Source of the DNA: Acidobacteriota bacterium
GTDB lineage: Bacteria; Acidobacteriota; Thermoanaerobaculia; Gp7-AA8
NCBI GenBank assembly: GCA_003223645.1
Contig: QHVT01000004.1
Span: forward strand, 185,334-249,333
Reading direction: 5' to 3'
Length of the DNA stretch: 64,000 nt
The position numbers and the translations under genes were made by a program. Below are positions 3,287-18,346 of this stretch, one piece after another; positions within the stretch are counted from its first letter, which is position 1; each line of letters begins with the position of its first letter. Below the pieces are notes generated by a model. The model saw only the letters and a program-made list of their open reading frames with translations. It made no database searches and was not told the origin of the DNA.

Positions 3287-4135
3287 TCACGGCTGCAGCC
3301 CCGCCCTTCGCATCTGCACAAAGGTCGCGACGCCGCTCAAAACCAGCAAGACGGCGAAGACGCAGACGATCGTCGGTCCGGTCGGTAGATCCATGCTCTC
3401 CCATTGCGTCGATAGCAACAGTCCGACGATGCCGGCGATCATGGCCACGCACCATCCAATGACGAGCCGCATCCCGATTCGCGCGCTGAGCAGTGCGCCG
3501 CAGACCGCGGGCACGATCAGATACGTGAAGACGAGGTAGACGCCGGCGATCCGGACGAAGCTCGTGACCACCAGGCCGAAGGTCGCGTAGAAGAGGAAGT
3601 CCCACAGCCGTACGCGCATCCCCTGCCGCTCCGCCTCCTCGATGTCGAACGAGATCAGATAGAACTTGCGGCGCAACCAGTAGTGCAGCGCGCCTACCGC
3701 GGCGAACAGCGCAACCGTGCGCAGGACCTCCGCTCGCGAGACCAGCAGAATGTTGCCGACGAGGAGGTTCTTGATCTCCTCGTCGCCGGCCGCCGTGCGG
3801 CTCAGAATCATCGTCGCCGCGGCGGCGGCGGCAATGTAGATGATGCCGATGATCGCCTCATGCGGGACTCGCGGATGACGAAAGCGCGTGAGAGAGAAGA
3901 GCGCGGCTCCCGCGATCGTGAAAAGGACCGCCAGGATGTATGGCAGCGTGCTGTGTTCCGGATCGGCCCCGAGGAGGACGGCCGTCGCGATCCCGAGAGC
4001 GGCGATCTGCGCGAGCGCCAGATCCACGAAGATGATTCCGCGCCCGACGACGTGCAGACCGAAGTAGACCAGGACCGCCGGCAGGACCACGAGCGCGATG
4101 AGCGGCCAGAGCCACAGGGTAAATAGTGTCGTCAC
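3287..4135 (-). CDS. znuB: Zinc/manganese ABC transporter permease (ZnuB-like)
   Basis: 282 residues, almost entirely hydrophobic, with about eight or nine membrane segments and the ABC-3 permease pattern (an early GRGIIFVDLALAQIAALGIA segment with Asp, and a later FEIAAL-like FDIEEAERQGMR loop that would contact the ATPase). It would form the inner-membrane channel importing Zn(II), or Mn/Fe, delivered by the binding protein encoded directly upstream (9-base gap). The start is a GTG with AGGAGAG in front. No ATPase (ZnuC) gene follows or precedes it, so the energising subunit must be encoded elsewhere. Last gene of the porin-znuA-znuB operon. Confidence 0.9.
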   Translation of the reverse strand: MTTLFTLWLWPLIALVVLPAVLVYFGLHVVGRGIIFVDLALAQIAALGIATAVLLGADPEHSTLPYILAVLFTIAGAALFSLTRFRHPRVPHEAIIGIIYIAAAAAATMILSRTAAGDEEIKNLLVGNILLVSRAEVLRTVALFAAVGALHYWLRRKFYLISFDIEEAERQGMRVRLWDFLFYATFGLVVTSFVRIAGVYLVFTYLIVPAVCGALLSARIGMRLVIGWCVAMIAGIVGLLLSTQWESMDLPTGPTIVCVFAVLLVLSGVATFVQMRRAGLQP

Positions 4136-4144
4136 AACTCTCTC

Positions 4145-5059
4145 CTATTTCGCCGCGAGGGCCTGGGCCACGCGTTTCACGACAGTGTCGATGAGGTCGA
4201 GATACGTCGGAGTGCCGGGCAACGCGCCGGGGAACTGAGCCACGTCCACGAGCACACCTCCTGTGCGCGCGACCACGGCTTCCGCTGTTTTGCGAGGCTG
4301 GTACGGCTCGACCAGCAGAACGCGGATGTTCTCGGCCTGCATCTTCTGCATCACTTTCGCGAGATGCGGCGGCGACGGCGGAATGCCGGGCTTCGGCTCG
4401 AGGAACGTATCGGCTTTCAAGCCGAAACGGCGGCCGAAATATCGCCAGGTCGGGTGATAGGTGACGATCTGACGCCCGTTGAACGGCGCGAGCGCGGCCG
4501 TCCACTGCTTCATCTTCGCGTCGAGAGCGGCTTCGAAAGCCGACGCGTTCGTCCGGTAGAGCGATGCGCCTGCCGGATCGAGCGCGCTGAACACGCGCGC
4601 AATGTGCTCGGCGACGATCTTGGCGTTGAGAGGATCGAGCATGAAGTGAGGATTGCCGGCGACGTGCGTGTCGCCCTGCGAACGGTCGGCCGCGAGAGGG
4701 ATGTCCAGCAGCTGGATGCCCTGCGAAGCGACGATTCGTCCCGGAGCTCCTGCCGCGATTTTCGGATTGCGCGATCCGTCGAGAAGCGGCGGCAGCCATC
4801 CGACCTCGAGCTCCGCCCCTCCTTCGATCAGGACGTCGGCGCGGTTCAACGCCACGATCTGGCTCGGCCGGGCATCGACAAAGTGCGGATCCTCGGTGGG
4901 CTTGGCGATGGTGGTCACCGAGACGCGCGCGCCGCCGATCTGCGAAGCCAGAGCGCTGTATTCGCCGGTGGTGCCGACGACCTTCAAAGCCGCATTTGCA
5001 GGAAGCACCGCGGCCATGCACGTCGCGGCGATGGTGAAGAAGACTCTCGTAGTACGCAT
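4145..5059 (-). CDS. znuA: Periplasmic zinc-binding protein of an ABC transporter (ZnuA-like)
   Basis: 304 residues with a Sec signal peptide (FFTIAATCMAAVLPANA). The cluster A-I solute-binding fold carries the expected metal ligands: His in PTEDPHFVDARPSQ, His in GNPHFMLDPLN and His in VTYHPTWRYFG, plus acidic residues near the C-terminus. The His-rich loop seen in many Gram-negative ZnuA proteins is not present. It would capture Zn(II) in the periplasm for the adjacent permease. ATG at 5059 is preceded by AAAGGA; upstream frame is non-protein-like. It starts 13 bases after the porin stop, so the two are probably co-translated. Regulation by a Zur-type repressor is likely but no box was recognised. 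Confidence 0.9.
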   Translation of the reverse strand: MRTTRVFFTIAATCMAAVLPANAALKVVGTTGEYSALASQIGGARVSVTTIAKPTEDPHFVDARPSQIVALNRADVLIEGGAELEVGWLPPLLDGSRNPKIAAGAPGRIVASQGIQLLDIPLAADRSQGDTHVAGNPHFMLDPLNAKIVAEHIARVFSALDPAGASLYRTNASAFEAALDAKMKQWTAALAPFNGRQIVTYHPTWRYFGRRFGLKADTFLEPKPGIPPSPPHLAKVMQKMQAENIRVLLVEPYQPRKTAEAVVARTGGVLVDVAQFPGALPGTPTYLDLIDTVVKRVAQALAAK

Positions 5060-5072
5060 TGATTTTTCCTTT

Positions 5073-6518
5073 TTAGAATTTGTGGGCGGCGTGCGCTCCG
5101 AGCAGGAACTCGAGCTGCAGCCACAGCGAGTGCGCGTCATCCTGGAACGGACTGCGCTTGTCGTAGTTGTACTGAAGACGAAGTTTTGAAAACTCCGTGG
5201 GAAACCACGTCAGTGCGGGGGAGATACGCCACCGCGGCGCCAGAGCATCGTCGGCGGGGTCGCCTCGATCGCCGCTCACGCGGTCGAACCGCAGACCCAC
5301 GATCCTGCCGGCCTTGTATCCCCAGTTAACCTGAAGGTAGCCGCCGCGATCGCGGAACGTCGCCGCGGCCAGGGAATCGACTGCTCCAACGGAGGCGCGC
5401 CGTTGCATGAATTCTCCCTGGACTTTGACGAACGGAAATCCTCGGAATGCATTGGTCGGCTTCCATTTCCAGAATCCGTCGACGCCGTAAATGCGTGTTC
5501 TGCCATGGTCGGACGTGCCGTTCGGACCGAGCGCGGCGGAGGCGCCGACCAGAAGCGTTTCCGTGTCGCTCAGATCGAACGATGCCGCATAGTGAGGAGT
5601 GATCAGAAGATCGGAAACGCTGGCGACTTCCCGCTGCTGAATCTCACGCCCGAACAGGGTCTCGCCCGGCACGCCGCGGAAACTGCTGGCCGTCTCACCC
5701 TGACTGTTTTGCACGGCCAGAAATGCTTCGGAGTAGAAGTTCGTCGGCATCAGCCACGAAACGCGCGCACCCACCGAGCGAAGGCCGTCGGGCCCGAAGA
5801 AGCGCCCGTTGACGAGAGGCTGGTCGACGAAATCCCACGAATGCGGATGCTGCGCGTTCAGCCTTCCGAACTCGGTGAAGAACTGCCCCGCTTTGACCTG
5901 CAGTCCCTTCGGGAGGGAGCTGGTCGTGGCGTAAACCTCTTCGAGCTCGACCGACGTCTCGCCTTCGGGAGTGATCTGAAGAACGATATTCGCCTGACCT
6001 CGCAGGTACGGATCGACGGCGCCTTCGAGAACCGTTTCGACATTCTGGACGGTAAAGCCACGCTGCGTCGGATCGTGTCCGCCCACCTGCAGCGCCTGAA
6101 TGTCTTTGGCGGTCGAGGTGCCGGCCGCGACGAGACCATCGAGGGAGAGATTGAGAAAGTTTTTTCCTCCCGCACCCGACACGATCGTCGTGGGCTCTGG
6201 GGCCGGCACCTCCGCGATCGCCGGCACCGGCTCGGCGGGCGGCGGCGTGGCTTCCGTCTCGACCGGCGGCGTAGTTGCCGCTTCGGGCGATTCCGGAGCC
6301 GCGGCAGGCACGGGCGTCGCTTGAAAGTCGTGTCGCAGCGACTCGATCTCGCTTCGCAGCGTGTCGTTCTCCTGCTTCAGCTCTTCAACGCGTTGCTCGA
6401 GCGCGCGGAGCCGTTCCAAAGGGTCCGCCGGCTGCTGATCCGCGCGGGCCGGGGCAGCTCCGCTGATGACGATCAGGGCTAGTGCGACCCCAATTCGGGC
6501 GCATGTGCTTCTTCTCAT
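5073..6518 (-). CDS. Outer-membrane porin in the zinc-uptake operon
   Basis: 481 residues. A signal peptide (about 1-26) is followed by a Leu/Glu-rich coiled coil (about 33-68, LERLRALEQRVEELKQEN), then a Pro/Ala/Glu linker, and then alternating beta-strand sequence ending with a C-terminal Phe (LLGAHAAHKF). This is the plan of coiled-coil porins that trimerise through the N-terminal helix. First gene of the operon with ZnuA and ZnuB, so the natural inference is an outer-membrane entry channel for zinc or a zinc complex under limitation. A GGAGG-type site precedes ATG 6518. Not TonB-dependent: no plug domain or TonB box. Porin call sure, substrate inferred. Confidence 0.8.
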   Translation of the reverse strand: MRRSTCARIGVALALIVISGAAPARADQQPADPLERLRALEQRVEELKQENDTLRSEIESLRHDFQATPVPAAAPESPEAATTPPVETEATPPPAEPVPAIAEVPAPEPTTIVSGAGGKNFLNLSLDGLVAAGTSTAKDIQALQVGGHDPTQRGFTVQNVETVLEGAVDPYLRGQANIVLQITPEGETSVELEEVYATTSSLPKGLQVKAGQFFTEFGRLNAQHPHSWDFVDQPLVNGRFFGPDGLRSVGARVSWLMPTNFYSEAFLAVQNSQGETASSFRGVPGETLFGREIQQREVASVSDLLITPHYAASFDLSDTETLLVGASAALGPNGTSDHGRTRIYGVDGFWKWKPTNAFRGFPFVKVQGEFMQRRASVGAVDSLAAATFRDRGGYLQVNWGYKAGRIVGLRFDRVSGDRGDPADDALAPRWRISPALTWFPTEFSKLRLQYNYDKRSPFQDDAHSLWLQLEFLLGAHAAHKF

Positions 6519-7007: not shown

Positions 7008-7337
7008 TCACCGCCTCACCTCACTTCTCGCTTTTACGCCGGTGACGTAATACGAGCCGCTCCTGTCGTGAACCGTCACTTCGACGAGCGCGCCGTCGGG
7101 CGGCAGTTCCGCGACCTTCGCGCCGCGTAACTCATAGTCCATCTTCATCGCCGGCATCTCGCCCGGCACTTCCTTGTTGTCGAGACTCACGGTGTTCTTG
7201 GCCGGATCGCGCGAGACGATCGTCGCCGTCATCGCGTACGTCTTCTCCTTCGATGCGGACGGCGTGCTCGTCTGCGTCTCTTTCGAGCACGCGGCGATGG
7301 TCAGGGCGAACAGCGTGGTGATCATGAGTGTTTTCAT
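7008..7337 (-). CDS. cusF: CusF-like periplasmic copper-binding lipoprotein
   Basis: 109 residues. A lipoprotein signal peptide ends at a lipobox (LTIAACSK). The mature part is a small OB-fold of the CusF/copper-binding family with the signature VPGEMPAMKMDYEL, whose Met residues are the Cu(I)/Ag(I) ligands; the His and Trp of E. coli CusF are not in place, so binding may be methionine-only. It would hand metal to the CusCBA pump. Its ATG overlaps the cusA stop by four bases (ATGA), so translation is coupled. The upstream frame in the same reading frame is cusA antisense to nothing real and was excluded. Confidence 0.85.
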   Translation of the reverse strand: MKTLMITTLFALTIAACSKETQTSTPSASKEKTYAMTATIVSRDPAKNTVSLDNKEVPGEMPAMKMDYELRGAKVAELPPDGALVEVTVHDRSGSYYVTGVKARSEVRR

Positions 7338-10300
7338 GCGTTCTCCGTCGCGGCGATCACCGCGCCTTCGGCGTGACGCACTTCGGCGCGCCACTTCCAG
7401 CGGTAATAGATTGCGGGATACACCAGCAGCTCCATCAAGAATGACGTGAACAGGCCGCCGATCATCGGCGCTGCGATGCGCTTCATCACGTCGGCGCCCG
7501 CGCCGGTGGACCACATGATCGGCACGAGGCCGAAGAAGGCGCAGGCGACGGTCATCACCTTCGGCCGGACGCGCTTCACCGCCCCGTGGTAGATCGCTTC
7601 GCGTAACTCTTCTCGGCTGCGCGGCTTCATCTCGTCGTAGGCCAGATCGAGGTAGAGCAGCATGAAGATGCCGGTCTCCGCGTCGAGCCCCAGCAACGCG
7701 ATGAGGCCGACCCATACGCCGATGGAGATGTTGTAGCCGAGGACCCAGAGCAGCCACACCGCGCCGACGGCCGAGAACGGAACGGCGAGCAGGACGAGTA
7801 GCGTCTTCGGCATCGAGCGCGTGTTGAGGAAGATGAGAAACGCGACGATGAACAGCGTCAGCGGCACGACGACGAGCATTCGCTGCCGCACCCGCTCCAT
7901 CGCTTCGTATTGCCCCGACCACTGCATCGTGTAGCCGGCCGGCATACGGAGCTGCGAGGCGACGGCGCGTTTCGCGTCCTCGACGAAACTGCCGAGATCG
8001 CGCCGCGCCGTATCGACGTCGATGTAGACGTAGCCGGTGAGGCGGCCGTTCTCATCGCGGATCATGGCCGGACCTTCTGCGATGCGAAGCGTCGCGAGCT
8101 GCGCGAGCGGAATCTGTGAACCGTTCATGCCTCCGTTCGCCGGCACCGGAACGAGCACGCGACCGAGCGTGTCCACTTCGTCGCGCAGCTCGCGCGGATA
8201 GCGGACGTTGATCGGATAGCGCTCGCGACCTTCGATCGTCGTCGAAACGTTCTCGCCGCCGATCGCGGTCATGATCGTCTGCTGTACGTCGTCGATGGTC
8301 AGGCCGTATCGCGCGATCGCCGCGCGGTCGATGTCGAAATCGACGAAGTAGCCGCCCGACACGCGCTCGCCGTACACGCTGCGCGCGCCGGGAACGCGAC
8401 TGACGATCCGCTCCAGTTGCTTGCCGACGTTCTCGATCTGCTTCAGGTCCGCACCGAACACTTTGATCCCCACCGGCGTGCGGATGCCGGTGGTGAGCAT
8501 GTCGATGCGATTGCGGATCGGCATCGTCCAGGCGTTCGTCTGTCCCGGGAGTTGCAGCCGCTGATCGAGATCGTTCGTCAGCTCCTCCCATGACATGCGA
8601 TCGGGCCAGAGCGGACGGACCAGCGGCAGCAGAAATGACGGCAGCCACCGTGAGTACCAGCGCGGCTTCATCCGCCATTGCGACTCCGGTTTGAGAACGA
8701 CGGTCGTCTCCATCATCGAGAACGGCGCAGGGTCGGTGGAGGTATCGGCACGTCCCGCTTTGCCATAGACGCGCTCGACTTCCGGCACCCGCCGCAGCAA
8801 CGCGTCCTGCTTCTGCAGCAGCGCGCTCGCCTCGGTGACGGAGATGCCCGGCAGTGTCGTCGGCATGTACAGAATCACGCCCTCATTGAGCGGCGGCATG
8901 AACTCGTGGCCGAGGCGGAAGTAGATCGGCACCGTCGCCAGCACGATGAGCAGCGCGACCGCGATCACGACACGTGTGTGCCGCAGCACCCAATGAATCG
9001 GCGGGCCGTAGATGCGGAACAGCACACGCGAAATCGGATGCCGCTCCTCCGGCACCATCCGTCCGACGAATACCGCGTTCGCCGTCGCGGAGAGCCAGCG
9101 CGGCTTGAAGTCGTAGCGTTTCAGCTTCGTGAACATCAGCCGCAGCGCCGGGTCGAGCGTGATGGCGAGCAGCGCGGCGATGGCCATCGAGAAGTTCTTC
9201 GTGAATGCGAGCGGCTTGAAGAGCTTCCCTTCCTGTGCTTCCAGGGCGAAGATCGGCAGAAACGACAGCGCGATCACGAGGAGCGAATAGAAGCTCGGCC
9301 GGCCCACCTCCTGAATCGCGGTGATCAGCACTTCCTTGTAGTCGCCGCGACGTCCGCCGCTCTCCCACGCCTCCAGCTTCTTGTGCGCGTTCTCCACGAC
9401 GACGACCGCGGCGTCGACGAGTGCGCCGATGGCCACGGCGATCCCGCCGAGCGACATGATGTTCGCGTTGATGCCGAACCAGCGCATGGGGATGAACGCC
9501 AGGATCACCGCGGCGGGGAGCGTGAAGATGGGAATGACGGCGCTCGGGATGTGCCGGAGGAACAACAGGATGATCAGCGAGACGATCAGCATCTCGATCA
9601 GCAGCTCGTGCTTCAGCGTGTGAATCGATGCGGCGATCAGCTCGGAGCGGTCGTAAGTCGTCACGATCTGAACGCCTTTCGGCAGGGAAGGCGCGATCTG
9701 CGCGAGCCGCTGCTTCACCGCGCGGATGACGTTCATCGCATTCTCGCCGTGGCGCATCACGATGACGCCGCCCGCAACTTCTCCCTTCCCGTCCAGCTCC
9801 GCGATGCCGCGGCGCAGCTCCGGTCCGAGCTGCACGTCGGCCACATCGGAGAGCCGTACCGCCGTGCCGTTCGCCGACTTCAGCACGATCTGTTCGAGAT
9901 CGGCTTTGCCGCGGACGTATCCGTGCGCGCGCACCATGTACTCCGCACCGCTCCACTCGATGAGGCGCCCGCCGACTTCGTTGTTCGACTTCCGCACCGC
10001 ATCGCTCACCTGCATGAGCGGGATGCCGTACGAGGCGAGCTTCTGCGGATCGACGGTGATCTGGTACTGCCGCACGAAGCCGCCGACGCTCGCCACTTCC
10101 GCAACGCCCGGCAGGGATTGCAGCTCGTACCGGATGTGCCAGTCCTCGAGCGAGCGGAGATCGGCGAGCGAGTGTTGGCCGGTCATATCGACGAGCGCGT
10201 ACTGAAAGACCCATCCGACTCCCGTTGCATCGGGGCCGAGCGACGTTTCCACGCCCTGCGGCAACTGCGACTGGACTTTCGACAGGGATTCGAGCACGCG

Positions 10301-10621
10301 GCTCCGCGCCCAATAGATGTCCGTACCCTCGTCGAAGATGACGTAGACATAGGAGTACCCGAAGTCGGAGAAGCCGCGGATCGCTTTCACGTGCGGCGCG
10401 CCGAGCAGCGCCGTCGTGACCGGATACGTCACCTGATCCTCGATGATGTCCGGGCTGCGATCCCATTTCGAGAAGATGATGACCTGCGTGTCGGAGAGGT
10501 CGGGCAGCGCATCGACCGCGATGTGCTGAATGCTCCAGACGCCGATCGCGACCAGCACGCCGACGATGATGACGACGATGCCGCGATTCGTCGCGCACCA
10601 GCGAATGATGCGGTCGATCAT
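7334..10621 (-). CDS. cusA: Heavy-metal efflux RND pump, CusA/CzcA family
   Basis: 1095 residues, full length for the family. The first helix (WCATNRGIVVIIVGVLVAIG) is followed by the porter signature DALPDLSDTQVIIFSKW, the membrane motif GALVDAAVVVVENAHKKLE with the proton-relay acidic residues, and a second large periplasmic loop containing MLTTGIRTPVGIKVFGADL, a CusA-type (monovalent Cu/Ag) signature. It would be the inner-membrane trimer exporting copper or silver with CusB and CusC encoded upstream. The ATG lies right against a repeat element (10622-10874) and no good ribosome-binding site is seen; the element may have replaced the original leader. Confidence 0.95.
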   Translation of the reverse strand: MIDRIIRWCATNRGIVVIIVGVLVAIGVWSIQHIAVDALPDLSDTQVIIFSKWDRSPDIIEDQVTYPVTTALLGAPHVKAIRGFSDFGYSYVYVIFDEGTDIYWARSRVLESLSKVQSQLPQGVETSLGPDATGVGWVFQYALVDMTGQHSLADLRSLEDWHIRYELQSLPGVAEVASVGGFVRQYQITVDPQKLASYGIPLMQVSDAVRKSNNEVGGRLIEWSGAEYMVRAHGYVRGKADLEQIVLKSANGTAVRLSDVADVQLGPELRRGIAELDGKGEVAGGVIVMRHGENAMNVIRAVKQRLAQIAPSLPKGVQIVTTYDRSELIAASIHTLKHELLIEMLIVSLIILLFLRHIPSAVIPIFTLPAAVILAFIPMRWFGINANIMSLGGIAVAIGALVDAAVVVVENAHKKLEAWESGGRRGDYKEVLITAIQEVGRPSFYSLLVIALSFLPIFALEAQEGKLFKPLAFTKNFSMAIAALLAITLDPALRLMFTKLKRYDFKPRWLSATANAVFVGRMVPEERHPISRVLFRIYGPPIHWVLRHTRVVIAVALLIVLATVPIYFRLGHEFMPPLNEGVILYMPTTLPGISVTEASALLQKQDALLRRVPEVERVYGKAGRADTSTDPAPFSMMETTVVLKPESQWRMKPRWYSRWLPSFLLPLVRPLWPDRMSWEELTNDLDQRLQLPGQTNAWTMPIRNRIDMLTTGIRTPVGIKVFGADLKQIENVGKQLERIVSRVPGARSVYGERVSGGYFVDFDIDRAAIARYGLTIDDVQQTIMTAIGGENVSTTIEGRERYPINVRYPRELRDEVDTLGRVLVPVPANGGMNGSQIPLAQLATLRIAEGPAMIRDENGRLTGYVYIDVDTARRDLGSFVEDAKRAVASQLRMPAGYTMQWSGQYEAMERVRQRMLVVVPLTLFIVAFLIFLNTRSMPKTLLVLLAVPFSAVGAVWLLWVLGYNISIGVWVGLIALLGLDAETGIFMLLYLDLAYDEMKPRSREELREAIYHGAVKRVRPKVMTVACAFFGLVPIMWSTGAGADVMKRIAAPMIGGLFTSFLMELLVYPAIYYRWKWRAEVRHAEGAVIAATENA

Positions 10622-10874: not shown

Positions 10875-12128
10875 TTAGAACCGCGAGAGCGCGGACTTCA
10901 GACGCGATTCCGAATCGACCAGGAAGTTCGCATCAACCACGACTCGCTCGCCCGGCCGCACGCCGGAACGGATCGCATAGAAGCCGTCGCCCTTCGCACC
11001 GGTGGTCACCTGCCGCGGTTCAAACGTGCCGTCTCCGCGCGCGATGAACACGAGCGACCGCGTGCCGGTGTTCATCACTGCGCTGTCGGGAATCGCCACC
11101 GATGATCCGGCCGGCTGCTGCAGCATGACGTCGGCGTACATGTCGGGCTTGAGCAGACCAGCCGCGTTCTCGAGCTCGATGCGAACGGTTGCCGTGCGCG
11201 TCTGCGCTGCGACGACGGGACCGATGAACGTCACGCGGCCCGGAAGCGTCTGGCCGCCGACGATGATTTGCGCCGGGGTTCCGACGCGCACCGCCTGCAA
11301 CTCGGATTGGTAGACATCCGCGAGCACCCAGACGTGCGACAGATCGGTGACCTCGTAGAGCGTGTCGCTCGGCATCACGCGCGCGCCGGCGACGGCGTTC
11401 TTCGTCGTCACGACGCCGCTCACGGGCGAGCGGAGAACCACATCGCGCGTGGCCTGGCCGGTTCGCACGACGCGGGCGATGTCCGCCGCGCTCATGTCCC
11501 AAAGACGGAGACGCGCGCGTGCCGCATCGGCAAGCGTGCGGCCGAGGTCGGAATGATTGCGTTCGGCGAGGAGCAATTCGTTTTGTGTGGCGAGGAGATC
11601 GGGACTGTAGACGGCGAGCAGCGGATCGCCGCGGCGCACGGGCTGGCCGGTGAAGTTGACGTAGAGCGTCTCGATGAACCCTTCGAACTTGGTCCGCACC
11701 TGCGCCACGCGTCGCTCGTCGGCCGTCACCCTGCCGGTCGTGCGGATGTTGCGCGAGAGATCGCGCAGTTCGGCCGTCGCGAGCTTGACCCCGATGAGTT
11801 GCTGGCGCTGCGGTGCAACCGAGACGTTCGCGTATCCGTCGATGGTCGATGTCGCATGCGTCGTCGTGGCTTCTTCCGCGTATTGCGGCACGAGCTTCAT
11901 GCCGCAGTCGGGTGCGACGCCGGGGTGATTGGACTCGTAGAGATGCGGTGGGCCTTGCGAGTACATCGGGTCGATCCAGGCGACGACGCGCCGGCCCGAG
12001 TGGTCCTGCGTGACGCCACCGATCTCGTTGGCCGATCCTCCGCGCTGCGACAGGAGGAGGACCAGCACGATGCCGAAGGCGAGGGCGAAGAGCGCGCTGA
12101 GGAGCCACGGCAGCCAGGTCCGTTTCAT
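10875..12128 (-). CDS. cusB: Periplasmic adaptor (membrane fusion protein) of the copper RND pump
   Basis: 417 residues. An N-terminal membrane anchor (LLSALFALAFGIVLVLLL) is followed by a heavy-metal-binding domain with HLYESNHPGVAPDCGMKLVP, which matches the YHS/HMBD-type segment of CusB proteins, then the barrel-sandwich, coiled hairpin and beta-barrel domains (VLRSPVSGVVTTKNAVAGA; FIGPVVAAQTRTATVRIEL). It bridges CusA and CusC in the periplasm and may load metal into CusA. The ATG overlaps the cusC stop by four bases. Only the downstream junction to cusA is disrupted, by the repeat element. Confidence 0.92.
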   Translation of the reverse strand: MKRTWLPWLLSALFALAFGIVLVLLLSQRGGSANEIGGVTQDHSGRRVVAWIDPMYSQGPPHLYESNHPGVAPDCGMKLVPQYAEEATTTHATSTIDGYANVSVAPQRQQLIGVKLATAELRDLSRNIRTTGRVTADERRVAQVRTKFEGFIETLYVNFTGQPVRRGDPLLAVYSPDLLATQNELLLAERNHSDLGRTLADAARARLRLWDMSAADIARVVRTGQATRDVVLRSPVSGVVTTKNAVAGARVMPSDTLYEVTDLSHVWVLADVYQSELQAVRVGTPAQIIVGGQTLPGRVTFIGPVVAAQTRTATVRIELENAAGLLKPDMYADVMLQQPAGSSVAIPDSAVMNTGTRSLVFIARGDGTFEPRQVTTGAKGDGFYAIRSGVRPGERVVVDANFLVDSESRLKSALSRF

Positions 12129-13402
12129 CGCGCACCTCCCATCGCCACCGCTCCGCTTCCGCCGGTTGCACCGTGCTGGAGCGCGTCGATTTCGGCATCC
12201 GCGACCAGTAGCTGGCGCAGGAACTCGTAATAATCGACATTGAGCGTGCGGTAGGTTTGCAGCGCGCCGAGCACGCCGTCGAATGTTGCCTTCCCTGTCT
12301 GGTACGACGCGAGCGCCGATTCGAAGCCGAGCTTCGCTTCGGGTACGAGCTGCTCGACATGAAGATTGATTTGTTCGACGGCCTCGTTGCGCGAGGCGAG
12401 CGCTTCGCCGAAGGCGGCAGCGAGTTGCTGCCGAAGCATGCCAATCTGCGCCCGTGCCGCATCGCGTCTTCCGATGGCCTCGGCGACGCGCGGCTCGATC
12501 GTGGTCTTCTTTCGGATCGGCAGCTCGATGCGGCCGACGACGCTGAACATGTCCTTCTGTTCCGGCCGCAAGCCGTATGACGCTTCGATGCTGAAGTCGG
12601 GCTTCGCCGTCAATTTCGCGAGCCGGATGTCTTCTTCACTCCGAGCCGCTTCTGTTTCCAGCGCGGCAATCGCCGGCGTCGAAGGATCGAGCGATACGTC
12701 TTCTGCATGTGCGTGGTGCTCCATCGCATGGTTGAGCGCGAAGGAAGGGATCGTTTCGTTTGCGGGAAGGCCGACGAGAGCGCGGAGGCGTGCGAGCGCG
12801 CTATCCCGGACGCCGCGCTGCATCAGGACAGCGTGTTGGATATTGCTGGCCTCGACCTTGGCGCGGATGATGTCGCTTTGCGCCGTTGCGCCGACTTCGT
12901 ACCGGGCGCGCGCGGCCTCGCTCATCATTGCCGCCAGCTTCACGATCTCGTCGTTCGCGGCGATCTGATTGTTTGCCGCCGCGGCTTCGTCGTAGGCCAT
13001 CAGCACGTCGCGCGTGATCTCGGCACGCCGGGAGTCCGCTTCGTGCTCCAGCCGCTCGACGCCGAGCTGCGCCGCGCGCCGCAGCGCATCGCGGCGTTCG
13101 CCGCGCACGAAGGTCTGTGACGCGCCGACCATGTACATCGTCATCATCGGATCGCGCGAGAGGTCGATCTGTTGATCCCGCACCCCCGCCATCAGCATCG
13201 GGTTTGGCAGCGCGCCCGCTCCGCGGACCTGCGCGCGCGCGGCGGCGAGGTTCGCGTCGATCTCGCGCAGCGACGGTGAAGCCGCGATCGCCGCTGCGAC
13301 GATCGAATGCGGGTCGTTCCAGTCGAGGGCCGACGCGGGCCTTGCGCTTACAAAGGCACTCAGAAGTGCGCCTGCAACGCAGGCCAAGAGTCTTCGATCC
13401 AT
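12125..13402 (-). CDS. cusC: Outer-membrane channel of the copper RND pump (TolC/CusC family)
   Basis: 425 residues with a signal peptide (LACVAGALLSAFVSARPASA) and two TolC-like (OEP) repeats rich in Ala/Glu helices, including EAIGRRDAARAQIGMLRQQL and the family ending YYEFLRQLLVADAEIDALQ. It would form the outer-membrane exit duct. First gene of cusC-cusB-cusA-cusF; a GAGGAT site precedes ATG 13402. No sensor/regulator pair of the CusRS type is adjacent; the nearest regulator is the receiver-GAF protein about 0.8 kb upstream on the same strand. Confidence 0.9.
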   Translation of the reverse strand: MDRRLLACVAGALLSAFVSARPASALDWNDPHSIVAAAIAASPSLREIDANLAAARAQVRGAGALPNPMLMAGVRDQQIDLSRDPMMTMYMVGASQTFVRGERRDALRRAAQLGVERLEHEADSRRAEITRDVLMAYDEAAAANNQIAANDEIVKLAAMMSEAARARYEVGATAQSDIIRAKVEASNIQHAVLMQRGVRDSALARLRALVGLPANETIPSFALNHAMEHHAHAEDVSLDPSTPAIAALETEAARSEEDIRLAKLTAKPDFSIEASYGLRPEQKDMFSVVGRIELPIRKKTTIEPRVAEAIGRRDAARAQIGMLRQQLAAAFGEALASRNEAVEQINLHVEQLVPEAKLGFESALASYQTGKATFDGVLGALQTYRTLNVDYYEFLRQLLVADAEIDALQHGATGGSGAVAMGGAR

Positions 13403-13471: not shown

Positions 13472-13840
13472 TCAAATGAGAAGAATGGAGAGGAGGGCGA
13501 GCCTGTCGACGACTCCGCGCCGGGGCGACGTATCGTTGAACGCGTGCGCAAGGGTGGGCGCGAGGCGCGACCCTGGAGGAACGGCTGCGAGCGCGGACGC
13601 GAACCCGACGGTTGGTGCTGCCGGGGATCCCGTGAGCTTCGCGGCCGGTGTGTCGTAACAGGTGATCGCCGTGCAGCAATCGCCTCGTTCCGTCGCCAGC
13701 ACAAGCGTCGCGTCAGGCGCGTGCGAGCAGCACGGCATCCGTGTACAGAAGCCGATGATCGCGGCCGCCGGTGCGAGACCGGCGATCACCAGCACGATCG
13801 CCAGGATGAGCGGCTTGCGAAGCATCGTGGTGCGAAGCAT
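13472..13840 (-). CDS. Small exported Cys-rich protein upstream of cusC
   Basis: 122 residues from ATG 13840. A signal-like hydrophobic segment (LILAIVLVIAGLAPAAAIIG) is followed by Cys pairs (CTRMPCC and GDCCTAITC) and a hydrophobic end (LALLSILLI). The six cysteines suggest metal binding or disulphides in the periplasm. It precedes the cus operon by 69 bases on the same strand and may be its first gene. Two other small proteins of similar plan occur in this region (6594-6884, 17945-18346). Family not recognised; being encoded in a copper region is the only functional clue. Confidence 0.5.
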   Translation of the reverse strand: MLRTTMLRKPLILAIVLVIAGLAPAAAIIGFCTRMPCCSHAPDATLVLATERGDCCTAITCYDTPAAKLTGSPAAPTVGFASALAAVPPGSRLAPTLAHAFNDTSPRRGVVDRLALLSILLI

Positions 13841-13989
13841 GAACACTATCCGTTCCAGTGAGACGGCCAACGCGGGGAAAAGATTCCTCGCGCTGAGCCT
13901 CGCTCCCTGGATACGTTACGGCGGCGCTGTCGGAGCCGTGGTGAGTCGCCGCACTTCGCCGTGTGCGATTCATCACTGGTCTCGCCCAT

Positions 13990-15148: not shown

Positions 15149-15457
15149 CTATTTCTTTGCCGGAGCGCTCATCTTCACGGTGCCGGCGGTCTTGCCGTCG
15201 GCCATCATCTTCACAACGACACGTTGCCCGACAGCGAGCTCGGACTGTTTCGCCGCGTGGCTGTCGGAGTGCAGCCACTTCGTTTTCTGCGAAGTCTGGA
15301 TCGTGAGGTCCTTGCCGTCCGTCGTCTTCATCATGAATGCGTTGCGGCCGTGCAGCATCGTGACTTTTCCCATGTAGGTGTGAATGTGGCCGGCGTGCGC
15401 GAAGGCGCTGCTGACGGCCAGGAGGAGGAAGAGAGAGACCGCGGCGAGTTTCTTCAT
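15149..15457 (-). CDS. Small periplasmic protein, OB-fold-like, in the copper cluster
   Basis: 102 residues with a clean Sec signal peptide (KLAAVSLFLLLAVSSAFA). The mature protein begins HAGHIHTYMGKV and has the short-beta-strand pattern of DUF5666/CusF-like OB domains (GKVTMLHGRNAFMMKTTDG ... LAVGQRVVVKMMADGK), with many Met and His that could bind copper. AAAGGA precedes the ATG. Ten bases downstream of the cytochrome c gene, so the last gene of that operon. Family assignment tentative. Confidence 0.65.
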   Translation of the reverse strand: MKKLAAVSLFLLLAVSSAFAHAGHIHTYMGKVTMLHGRNAFMMKTTDGKDLTIQTSQKTKWLHSDSHAAKQSELAVGQRVVVKMMADGKTAGTVKMSAPAKK

Positions 15458-15467
15458 GGATGTCCTT

Positions 15468-16124
15468 TCAGTGGTGGTGTGAATGCGTGGTTGAGCTGGG
15501 AGCCGGCGTTGACGAAGCGTCGCCGCCGGCGAGAAATGCTTCTTCCTGCTGCATCTGCTGCCATTCTTCCGGCGACTTCGGATTCAGCTTCTCCATTTCA
15601 GCCGTCTCCTCGGGCGTGAGCTTCGACAGATGCCGGATGAAGTGAACCAGCTTCCAGTTCTCGGCGTCATCATGGCCGGCGGGATCGCCCCATGCCGGCA
15701 TCCCGGTGAGCCGTACGCCGTTCTTGATGATCGAGAACAACTCTCCGTCCGTCAGCTCCTGCGTTCGCGGTCGCCGCATGTCGGGAGCTTTCGGATAAAG
15801 GTTGCGGCCGATCTCGGTGTTTCCGCTGCCATCATTGGCGTGGCATGTCGCGCAATGATCCGCCCAATGCGCGCGACCTTCCGCCAAGGCGCCGGCGGTG
15901 AGCGGAACGGGATTGCGCGCGCCGCGCATTCTTGCCGGTGTCGCCAGGCGCCGCACGCTCCGCGCGATCACCGCCTCCATCATCGTGGGCCGCGTGCGTG
16001 CGCTCAGGCCGTAATGAACCAGCCAGGCGCAGATGATGATGAGTCCCGCGGCCGCGAGGACGATCGCCGCCGCCAGAATTTTTCCGGTGATGTGCCAGTG
16101 CTGTCGTGCCACGTCTCGCCTCAC
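15468..16124 (-). CDS. Membrane-anchored class I cytochrome c
   Basis: 218 residues. An N-terminal helix (KILAAAIVLAAAGLIIICAW) anchors a periplasmic domain with one haem c site (CATCH) and the distal Met ligand in GVRLTGMPAWGDP. The C-terminal tail is Pro/Ser-rich and ends in His residues (THSHHH), which could bind metal. It would carry electrons in the periplasm. The GTG start overlaps the stop of the CusF-barrel fusion by four bases, so they are translated together; a redox role in copper handling, such as Cu(I)/Cu(II) conversion, is a guess from context. Confidence 0.88.
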   Translation of the reverse strand: MRRDVARQHWHITGKILAAAIVLAAAGLIIICAWLVHYGLSARTRPTMMEAVIARSVRRLATPARMRGARNPVPLTAGALAEGRAHWADHCATCHANDGSGNTEIGRNLYPKAPDMRRPRTQELTDGELFSIIKNGVRLTGMPAWGDPAGHDDAENWKLVHFIRHLSKLTPEETAEMEKLNPKSPEEWQQMQQEEAFLAGGDASSTPAPSSTTHSHHH

Positions 16125-17800
16125 ATGTGCATGGAATGCATGTCGTGCGCGGACGAGCTGCCGCCGCGCAGGCGAACGAAGAGATAGAAAGAGTGCGGAC
16201 TGCTGCCGTAGCTCGGCTTGAGGGCGTCGGGAATCGAGTACGCCGTCACGTTCGCACCGAGCGCGCCGGCGAGCGCCTGCGTCGTGAGCACGTCGCGCGA
16301 GTAGCCGATCGTCAGCGCCTTCACGCGAAACACGCCGTGCCCGATCGCGGGAGGCGCATCCTGCACGGCGAACAGCTCGTCCTTATCGACGATCTCCGCG
16401 CGGCCGGTGACGTAGTTGCGGCCGCCGAACTGCAGCACGGATTCCGCGAGCCATGAAATCGGGGCATGTCCCCCGCTCTTTTTGTTGTGCCCGAAGATGA
16501 CGCTCGTGTCCCACCGGCCGACGCTCGTGGCCTTGCTGTACGCGACGGAGGCGGTGGTCCGCTGGATGTTGCCCGGCTCCGCCGCTTCAGGATGCTCCAG
16601 ATGGCCGGTGGAGATTTGCGCGCTCCAGTTGGGACTCGGATCGAACGTCAGCCGCGCGGCCCACGAATCGATCTTGCCGGTATCGATGTCCCATCTCTTT
16701 TCGTCCGGCTCGCGTCCATGGAAACCGCTGAACGCGAATCCGAGCACGCCGCGCTGCGCACCGAGCGTGATGACGCTTCCGGCGATGTGCGTCGAATCCT
16801 GCACGTGATGGCTGAGCGTCGCCTGCGGGATCTCCGACGCCGACGCGCGATGCGGATAGGCGACCGGGCCGAGAGAAGGATCGCCGAACGGCGCGGCGTA
16901 GATGTACCCGATCGTATTCGCGCCGAGGGGGTGCGCATATTCGGCGGCCACCTCCATGAAGAAATCGTGCGGATGCTGCGCGTCGATGATCGGACGCCCG
17001 TCGACCGTCTCCCCCGTCTGGAACAATTCCGGGTACTTCTTCCCGACTGTCAGCGGCTCGAGACTGAGCATGGAGCGGAGCATCAGGTGACCGCCGCCCA
17101 GCGGCCGTTCGGCCATCCCCATGATCCAATTCGTCGAAAAGAACTTGTCATCGCCGCGGGGACCCGACTGCACGACCTGATTGACGAATGCGAGCCCGTG
17201 CAGCATCAGCATCCAGTCTCCGTGCTGCGTCATCGTCATGTGCATCGGCGCGGCAGCCGGATTCATGCTGGTGCCGGACGCCTGACGCATCAACAGCTCG
17301 CTCGTCGCATCGCTTTGCATCTGCATCCCGCTCATGCCGCCGTGCTGCATCTGCTCCTGCTCGCCGTGCTGCATACCGGTCATCGGCTGCGGTGCAGCCG
17401 CGCCGCCGTGCTGCGCGTGATCGGCGTGCTGCTGCATGGCGGCATGCTCGTGCTGCGGTGCAGACGTTGCGGGCGGCTCGCTCATCGGATACTCCTGCAT
17501 CGCCTTCGCACCCGCCGCGGCAACGTTGGTCAGCCAGTACGTGCCATCAGATTCGTGAAGCGTGGCGGTGATCTTCGCGCCGTCTTTCGGCAGTGATGCG
17601 ACCTTCTGGCCGCGCACTTCGTACGGCATGGTCATGGCGCCCATGACGCCGGGCACCTCGGTATGGGCAACGGTGAGTCGATTGGTGGCTGCGTCGCGGC
17701 TGACGATGGTGCCGCTCAGCGCGCCGCTTTTCTCGGCCGCCTGCGCACTGAACGCGACGAGCAGCACGAGCGTGGGAATTGCTGTCTTGACGAACTTCAT
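16121..17800 (-). CDS. CusF-like copper-binding domain fused to an outer-membrane barrel
   Basis: 559 residues in three parts. After a signal peptide (PTLVLLVAFSAQA), residues about 25-95 form a CusF-type domain with the ligand-rich HTEVPGVMGAMTMPYEV. Residues about 100-180 form a Met/His/Gln-rich linker (HEHAAMQQHADHAQHGG; MQHGGMSGMQMQ). The rest is beta-barrel-like sequence with many aromatic/Gly strands and a Met/His end (DMHSMHM). Family members with only the barrel are known near copper genes; the N-terminal copper-binding fusion is what is odd. The start 17800 has AAGGAG upstream. A direct metal route from a soluble domain to an outer-membrane pore is a reasonable hypothesis. Confidence 0.8.
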   Translation of the reverse strand: MKFVKTAIPTLVLLVAFSAQAAEKSGALSGTIVSRDAATNRLTVAHTEVPGVMGAMTMPYEVRGQKVASLPKDGAKITATLHESDGTYWLTNVAAAGAKAMQEYPMSEPPATSAPQHEHAAMQQHADHAQHGGAAAPQPMTGMQHGEQEQMQHGGMSGMQMQSDATSELLMRQASGTSMNPAAAPMHMTMTQHGDWMLMLHGLAFVNQVVQSGPRGDDKFFSTNWIMGMAERPLGGGHLMLRSMLSLEPLTVGKKYPELFQTGETVDGRPIIDAQHPHDFFMEVAAEYAHPLGANTIGYIYAAPFGDPSLGPVAYPHRASASEIPQATLSHHVQDSTHIAGSVITLGAQRGVLGFAFSGFHGREPDEKRWDIDTGKIDSWAARLTFDPSPNWSAQISTGHLEHPEAAEPGNIQRTTASVAYSKATSVGRWDTSVIFGHNKKSGGHAPISWLAESVLQFGGRNYVTGRAEIVDKDELFAVQDAPPAIGHGVFRVKALTIGYSRDVLTTQALAGALGANVTAYSIPDALKPSYGSSPHSFYLFVRLRGGSSSAHDMHSMHM

Positions 17801-17944: not shown

Positions 17945-18346
17945 TCAAATCAGGAGCGTGCGGACGAGAACGTGCAATCCCACGTCCCGGTCGCAGCGGA
18001 TCGCGCCCAATGAGATGAAGCTACGGTACGTCGTCGCGTCCGATGCCGTGAAGTGCTGCCCTGCCGCCGCTGTGACCACGAGTCGGGACGAGCGCGGCAC
18101 CTCGGTCGCGATCCGCTTCACCGGCTCCTGTTTTTCGCGCGCCGGAACGGGCGTCTGCCGGCCACCTTGATCGTGCTGCTCGCCGCGGATGAAACCGAAC
18201 GCGACGTCACACAGCGGCAACGCCTTGTGGATCATGCCATGAAACGGCAGGACGCAACACCCAAAGACGAACACGACCGCCGCAAGAAGCGGAATGGTCG
18301 CGCCGATCACCCAGGCCGCTGCTATCGCCGTGCGTCGCATGGTCAT
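17945..18346 (-). CDS. Small membrane protein with Cys pair, start of the copper cluster
   Basis: 133 residues. A strong N-terminal membrane helix (IGATIPLLAAVVFVFGCCVL) carries a CC pair and is followed by a soluble region with scattered Arg and His, ending LHVLVRTLLI. Two ATGs lie close (18346 and 18340); neither has a good ribosome-binding site. Similar in plan to the proteins at 13472-13840 and 6594-6884. It is the most upstream gene of the copper region, 144 bases before the CusF fusion. No family recognised. Confidence 0.45.
   Translation of the reverse strand: MTMRRTAIAAAWVIGATIPLLAAVVFVFGCCVLPFHGMIHKALPLCDVAFGFIRGEQHDQGGRQTPVPAREKQEPVKRIATEVPRSSRLVVTAAAGQHFTASDATTYRSFISLGAIRCDRDVGLHVLVRTLLI

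Follow-up and report, generated by a model that had tools for sequence, protein, structure and literature searches.

A CusF domain fused to a predicted outer-membrane barrel in Acidobacteriota: a candidate copper channel with a built-in periplasmic arm

Apart from the Cus tripartite pump, the route by which copper passes the outer membrane is still unsettled, and for the barrel PcoB both import (PMC9210255) and efflux (PMC12509749) have been published. The question is raised again by a gene in a stretch of 64,000 nucleotides from an Acidobacteriota genome (GenBank assembly GCA_003223645.1, contig QHVT01000004.1, positions 185,334 to 249,333), here called the window. A sequence-only reading of this DNA had described the gene product as a CusF-type copper-binding domain joined through a Met/His-rich linker to an outer-membrane barrel and followed by a cytochrome c in the same operon. 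We asked whether this architecture holds, how it is distributed and what such a protein may do with copper.

The reading frame starts at a likely ATG at position 17800, within a frame that is open up to 17866, and ends with a stop codon at 16121-16123, in agreement with the gene limits of the sequence-only reading (Table 1). The CusF-type domain was borne out by the Pfam model CusF_Ec, which matched the fusion with 36.2 bits and thus above its curated cutoff of 27. The linker contains 9 Met and 7 His per 64 residues and the protein ends in SAHDMHSMHM, in agreement with the proposed Met/His-rich linker and tail. In the full-length model, the CusF part (residues 24-95) consists of five strands with pLDDT blocks of 80-95, most of the barrel exceeds 90, and values below 50 were obtained for residues 99-158 and 550-559. 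In E. coli CusF, Cu(I) is bound by His36, Met47, Met49 and Trp44; compared by eye on the bare sequences, the fused CusF appears to keep the His and the M-x-M and to carry a Met at the place of Trp44. Searches of the PDB sequences with the whole fusion and with the CusF part alone returned no match. An artefact of assembly or reading frame can be dismissed, because two further genomes (G015 and G017) encode the same fusion, and their proteins are 75% and 76% identical to it almost from end to end.

Table 1. Positions of the fusion gene, its predicted parts and neighbouring genes in the window.
Feature	Position	Strand	Evidence
CusF-barrel fusion gene, 559 aa	16121..17800	-	Pfam scan and structure models
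Signal peptide, residues 1-22, MKFVKTAIPTLVLLVAFSAQAA	17735..17800	-	by eye; helix 2-16 in the full-length model
CusF domain, residues 28-93	17522..17719	-	PF11604, E 5.4e-9; five strands in the model
Met/His/Gln-rich linker, residues 99-162, predicted disordered	17315..17506	-	composition, pLDDT
16-stranded outer-membrane barrel, residues 189-546	16163..17236	-	predicted structure
Loop L2, residues 246-280; Q261, E264, D273, Q275, H276, H278 conserved	16961..17065	-	94-100% of 65 rows
Loop L3, residues 307-339; H317, R318, H331, H332, D335, H338 conserved	16784..16882	-	94-100% of 65 rows
Loop L4, residues 362-378; E364, E367, R369 conserved	16667..16717	-	91-94% of 65 rows
Met/His-containing C-terminal tail, residues 548-559	16124..16159	-	sequence; full-length model
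Small membrane protein with FGCCVLPFH and CDRDVGLH motifs	17945..18346	-	upstream of the fusion in 3/3 fused genomes
Cytochrome c, membrane-anchored (by eye)	15468..16124	-	PF13442, E 4.1e-14
Small secreted protein, DUF5666-like	15149..15457	-	PF18914, E 0.0021, 18.8 bits, below cutoff 27
TolC/CusC-type outer-membrane efflux protein	12125..13402	-	PF02321, E 1.7e-34
CusB-type adaptor	10875..12128	-	PF16576, E 1.8e-73
CusA-type RND pump	7334..10621	-	TIGR00914, 1157 bits, cutoff 701
Stand-alone CusF-like protein, lipoprotein by eye	7008..7337	-	49% identical to the fused CusF

Structure prediction agrees with the assignment of the C-terminal part as a barrel. The model of residues 163-559, based on an alignment of 65 rows, reached a mean pLDDT of 93.1 and a pTM of 0.90, and 16 strands were counted from the listed elements of both the partial and the full-length predictions. 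Among solved structures, OprO/OprP ranked first (Z 24.2), practically tied with OmpF/OmpC-type porins (22-23), with identities of 7-12% in the alignments to the listed porins. Such a resemblance does not establish common ancestry. The predicted fold of the window barrel is that of OprO/OprP and the OmpF-type porins (Z 22-24), and we know of no such metal arm on any of them. PcoB was absent among the 50 structures listed in this comparison, which does not by itself speak against a likeness. The metal-binding arm had been placed on the periplasmic side, and this would fit porin topology with both chain ends in the periplasm; for PcoB, N- and C-termini are described as periplasmic (PMC9210255).

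The strands were numbered from the N-terminus, assuming that both chain ends are periplasmic, and with this numbering the conservation concentrates in three loops (Table 1). All window-barrel His residues kept in at least 90% of the 65 rows are part of L2 or L3 (H276, H278, H317, H331, H332 and H338), and D273, D335, E264, E364 and E367 are located in L2-L4. By this numbering, the loops bearing the His/Asp cluster are predicted to face outward; in general porins, it is L3 that bends into the pore. The conserved His and acidic residues of L2 and L3 therefore make a metal site at the mouth of the pore plausible. Divergent paralogues in the alignment apparently have H278 and H338 and lack the other four His (by eye). 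They include a barrel of the same genome (L002, G000:C32:82733-83842), which is 33% identical.

The barrel part had no match in Pfam or among the PDB sequences, the best NCBIfam match was at chance level (E 0.27), and a Pfam scan of the relatives matched none of 65 members (E up to 0.01). It belongs to a family of its own, for which no Pfam model was found. Scanning GTDB contigs yielded at least 559 relatives among 589 candidate stretches, and the best 80 of these at least 559 comprise, by title, 79 from Acidobacteriota and one from Burkholderiales. With the fusion as query at E 1e-10, matches were obtained in 88/396 genomes of the phylum, a count that includes fragments and at least one case (G371) of the CusF end alone, and in 14/398 genomes of Pseudomonadota. 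Three members are plasmid-borne, two in Sphingobium and one in Pontibacter (Bacteroidota), and are annotated as hypothetical protein; the one in Pontibacter is located one gene downstream of a copper P-type ATPase.

Within this family, the CusF domain is the exception. It is fused to the barrel in 3 of the 148 Thermoanaerobaculia genomes (this genome, G017 and G015), a match spanning both parts was found in this genome only in the phylum sample (n=396), and no such match was found in the Pseudomonadota sample (n=398). By these counts the fusion is rare, and not the common, described architecture that would have refuted the earlier reading. Literature searches restricted to open-licence papers revealed no title or abstract opening that describes it, and passages of PMC3707914 contained no such fusion. 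In a tree of the barrels, the three fused members and an unfused barrel (G005) form one group with a support of 99/99 and an unresolved order inside, and the CusF label has to change twice, such as by a single gain plus a single loss. The Met/His-rich arm is more widespread: the N-terminal part exceeded the barrel in Met+His in 91 of 96 members (median 16% versus 7%). This count covers those of the 150 distinct members that allowed a signal-like start to be assigned and had 10 or more residues left between it and the barrel (54 were left out). Judged by composition, the Met/His arm is a trait of the barrel family and the CusF domain is not.

Other modules occupy the N-terminus in some relatives. 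Of the 150 members, 138 have an N-terminal part of 60 residues or more, and 14 of these parts matched a module: CusF (3), cytochrome c (3), cupredoxin (5), a DUF5666-like domain (1) and a Cys-rich domain (2). Members of the family contributed to the module HMMs, and long reading frames are over-represented in the set; these counts therefore represent a list and not a rate. The three fused cytochromes matched PF13442 with E-values of 1.6e-10, 3.6e-11 and 5.9e-10. The matches of the five cupredoxins to SoxE or plastocyanin were weak, with three above a cutoff, and two cupredoxins scanned with NCBIfam matched rusticyanin (E 4.3e-17 and 4.5e-13), under the strict cutoff of that model. The Pfam match of the DUF5666-like domain (L196) was likewise below cutoff, and the repeated Cys-rich N-terminal domain had no credible family match; it occurs in the barrel members L194 6655-8700 (-) and L197 5192-7309 (+). 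CusF is a Cu(I)-binding protein; cytochromes and cupredoxins accept single electrons. For this reason, the swap of modules is the strongest hint that the job of the arm is Cu(I) handling, and it hints at modular copper-handling channels. The module-bearing members can be regarded as a natural experiment in which the modules suggest the role of the arm.

The expected cytochrome c was indeed confirmed as the next gene of the operon, its GTG start overlapping the TGA stop of the barrel gene by 4 bases. A like cytochrome directly follows the fusion in G015 and is also encoded beside two unfused barrels from another family of Thermoanaerobaculia (L172 and L175), whose fetched stretches also encode CusA, CusB and a P-type ATPase. 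G379 has a cytochrome c-barrel fusion directly after CusB and, a few genes on, a P-type ATPase. When the three fused cytochrome domains were compared by BLAST with the 11 PF13442 cytochromes found in the genome, the window cytochrome ranked first in 3/3 cases, with 84.0, 75.1 and 77.0 bits against 54.7, 66.6 and 48.1 bits for the runners-up.

About 2 kb further downstream of the cytochrome c gene, the window contains the genes cusCBA-cusF. The gene order differs in G015, where cusB-cusA-cusF is located directly upstream of small protein-fusion-cytochrome c-small protein, whereas the cus genes of the window are downstream. The last small protein of G015 takes the same place as the DUF5666-like protein of the window; a DUF5666 link between this operon protein and L196 was dropped, because both are below the Pfam cutoff and their mutual E-value is 0.15. 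The small membrane protein upstream of the fusion has counterparts at L164 11847-12197 and L163 6787-7173 and gave no credible family match.

Copper markers were counted around the relatives. A CPC-type P-type ATPase was present in the fetched stretch of 16 of the best 80 of at least 559 relatives, compared with 0/32 control stretches, which came from other genomes (P 0.005); in 15 of the 16, it lies no more than 1 kb from the barrel frame. HMA domains were detected in 4/42 downstream neighbours on the same strand. For the wider family, we used 32 loci (without the window and the two other fused genomes) and the middle 15 kb of each, a range that leaves, for example, the P-type ATPase of L175 outside: any of four copper markers was found at 5/32 loci versus 1/32 same-contig controls (P 0.20), and a P-type ATPase at 3/32 versus 0/32 (P 0.24). 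Association with copper genes is thus clear around the window lineage and for close relatives; across the family at large it is unproven. Among 139 neighbouring genes, the most frequent Pfam families were RecR (5) and YbaB (4), followed by cytochrome CBB3 (3) and by CusB-type, P-type ATPase and OEP with 2 each.

With moderate confidence, we propose that the fusion is a passive outer-membrane copper channel with a built-in periplasmic capture arm. Cu(I) delivered to the periplasm by pumps would be bound by the tethered CusF, and the Met/His arm would hand it on to the mouth of the barrel. The neighbouring cytochrome c, fused in some relatives, may accept an electron from Cu(I), and copper would exit passively, meeting the His/Asp cluster on its way through the pore. 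If the cytochrome oxidises Cu(I), copper would leave as Cu(II) and not return. In other relatives, a cytochrome or a cupredoxin occupies the position of CusF. Copper as the substrate, the direction of flow and the role of the cytochrome are the inferred elements of this proposal; a cytochrome c that oxidises Cu(I) has no precedent known to us, and the cytochrome c link makes such a reaction at the outer membrane directly testable. Several observations count against a copper channel. The G005 barrel is 83% identical to the window barrel and has no CusF, and neither a cus gene nor a cytochrome was recognised around it by eye. In G017, the fusion is followed by a fatty-acid hydroxylase and a cupredoxin gene instead of a cytochrome.

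Among known systems, CopB/PcoB is the obvious comparison. Both are outer-membrane barrels with a disordered His/Met-rich periplasmic N-terminal arm, in a copper-operon setting. Membership in CopB/PcoB was rejected by profile and homology tests: PF05275 had no match in the fusion (E up to 10) or in any of 65 members (E up to 0.01), and hhalign of the barrel against a profile of 8 CopB sequences gave a probability of 0.1%. PcoB has 12 strands (PMC9210255), compared with 16 predicted in the window barrel, which has an additional folded CusF module and a cytochrome as partner, whereas the partner of PcoB is the multicopper oxidase PcoA. The 4-base overlap of the barrel and cytochrome genes resembles that of pcoA/pcoB in Caulobacter (PMC12509749). 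CopB was detected in 28/396 genomes of the phylum and in 0/18 of the family of this genome (own included). A simple replacement of CopB was likewise rejected, because 9 of the 28 CopB genomes also match the fusion query and the two are thus not mutually exclusive. The window barrel represents a second type of barrel with a PcoB-type Met/His arm, without detected sequence likeness to PcoB and, in some members, with folded copper or redox modules.

The published work on PcoB bears on both directions of flow. According to PMC12509749, the disordered His/Met N-terminus is required for copper efflux, and its deletion raises copper sensitivity and cell copper. The structure and flux work in PMC9210255 concludes copper import and would favour an import channel here as well, in which copper enters through the barrel and is buffered in the periplasm by the arm, to supply cuproproteins or to be stored safely. 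The predicted position of the His/Asp cluster on the outer face is where an importer would bind metal. We consider import unlikely in the present case, as the CusCBA setting, together with the P-type ATPases in relatives, resembles export.

A likeness was also found to Cyc2, which combines an N-terminal metal or redox module with a 16-stranded porin resembling OprO/OprP (PMC8406198). A Cyc2-type electron conduit would oxidise Cu(I) or Fe(II) in the pore and pass the electrons to a periplasmic cytochrome or cupredoxin for respiration. In line with this, the window barrel has 16 predicted strands, its best structural matches are the templates reported for Cyc2 (PMC8406198), relatives include cytochrome c and cupredoxin fusions, and a redox partner is encoded next door. 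However, the module of Cyc2 is a monoheme cytochrome, whereas the window barrel bears CusF in place of a redox domain (three relatives have a fused cytochrome), and a long, disordered Met/His linker separates module and barrel. Furthermore, the motif AXPXFAR[Q/K][T/Y] before CXXCH (PMC8406198) is absent from all three fused cytochromes and from the window cytochrome. A conduit of this type appears improbable.

Equally improbable is that the porin serves a different metal or solute, be it silver, zinc, nickel, arsenic or an anion, and that its Met/His arm soaks up metal passively. In favour of this reading, the fold taken by itself matches general and phosphate porins, association with copper genes is weak across the wider family, an ACR3-like exporter lies beside the G005 barrel and zinc-uptake-like genes are also present in the window (both by eye). 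Against it, CusF, the Met-rich arm and the cus genes indicate Cu(I)/Ag(I), and the near-invariant His cluster would suggest a metal over an anion.

A precedent for tethering the CusF fold to an export component of the envelope is SilB of Cupriavidus metallidurans, which has a C-terminal CusF-like domain (PMC4446572); SilB is a periplasmic RND adaptor, whereas the window protein is an outer-membrane barrel with an N-terminal CusF. We read the window protein as one that may function like PcoB/CopB with a Cyc2-like layout, although the profile and homology tests place it outside the former and the motif test outside the latter, in a comparison with Cyc2 that covered layout and motif. The capture channel proposed above can be extended to a broader, tentative and rather unlikely scheme of a widespread copper redox porin family. 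Its His-lined barrel would carry swapped CusF, cytochrome c, rusticyanin-like cupredoxin, Cys-rich and perhaps OB-like modules, Cu(I) would be captured or oxidised at the pore, and the electrons would pass to a dedicated cytochrome c. If true, this family would be the copper-handling equivalent of the iron-based Cyc2 system and would be linked to Cus efflux.

Further small genes were observed around the barrels. Many are preceded by small secreted Cys/His-rich proteins (L030-L109, for example L031 7428-7817 and L093 7278-7691; by eye), which are possibly CopL-like copper-sensing leader peptides; compared with CopL_fam, the upstream small proteins gave weak matches in 2/54 cases (best E 0.0048). 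In the window, a small Cys-rich secreted protein at 13472-13870 (-) adjoins the cus genes and had no credible family match. The ACR3-like arsenite exporter beside the G005 barrel is encoded at L165 8391-9464 (-) and is the single neighbour that argues for something other than copper. The cus genes of the window are followed by a porin-like gene at 5073-6518 (-, NAQHPHSWDF), a zinc-type ABC binding protein at 4145-5140 (-) and an ABC permease at 3287-4135 (-); by eye, this trio is probably a second metal cluster for zinc uptake.
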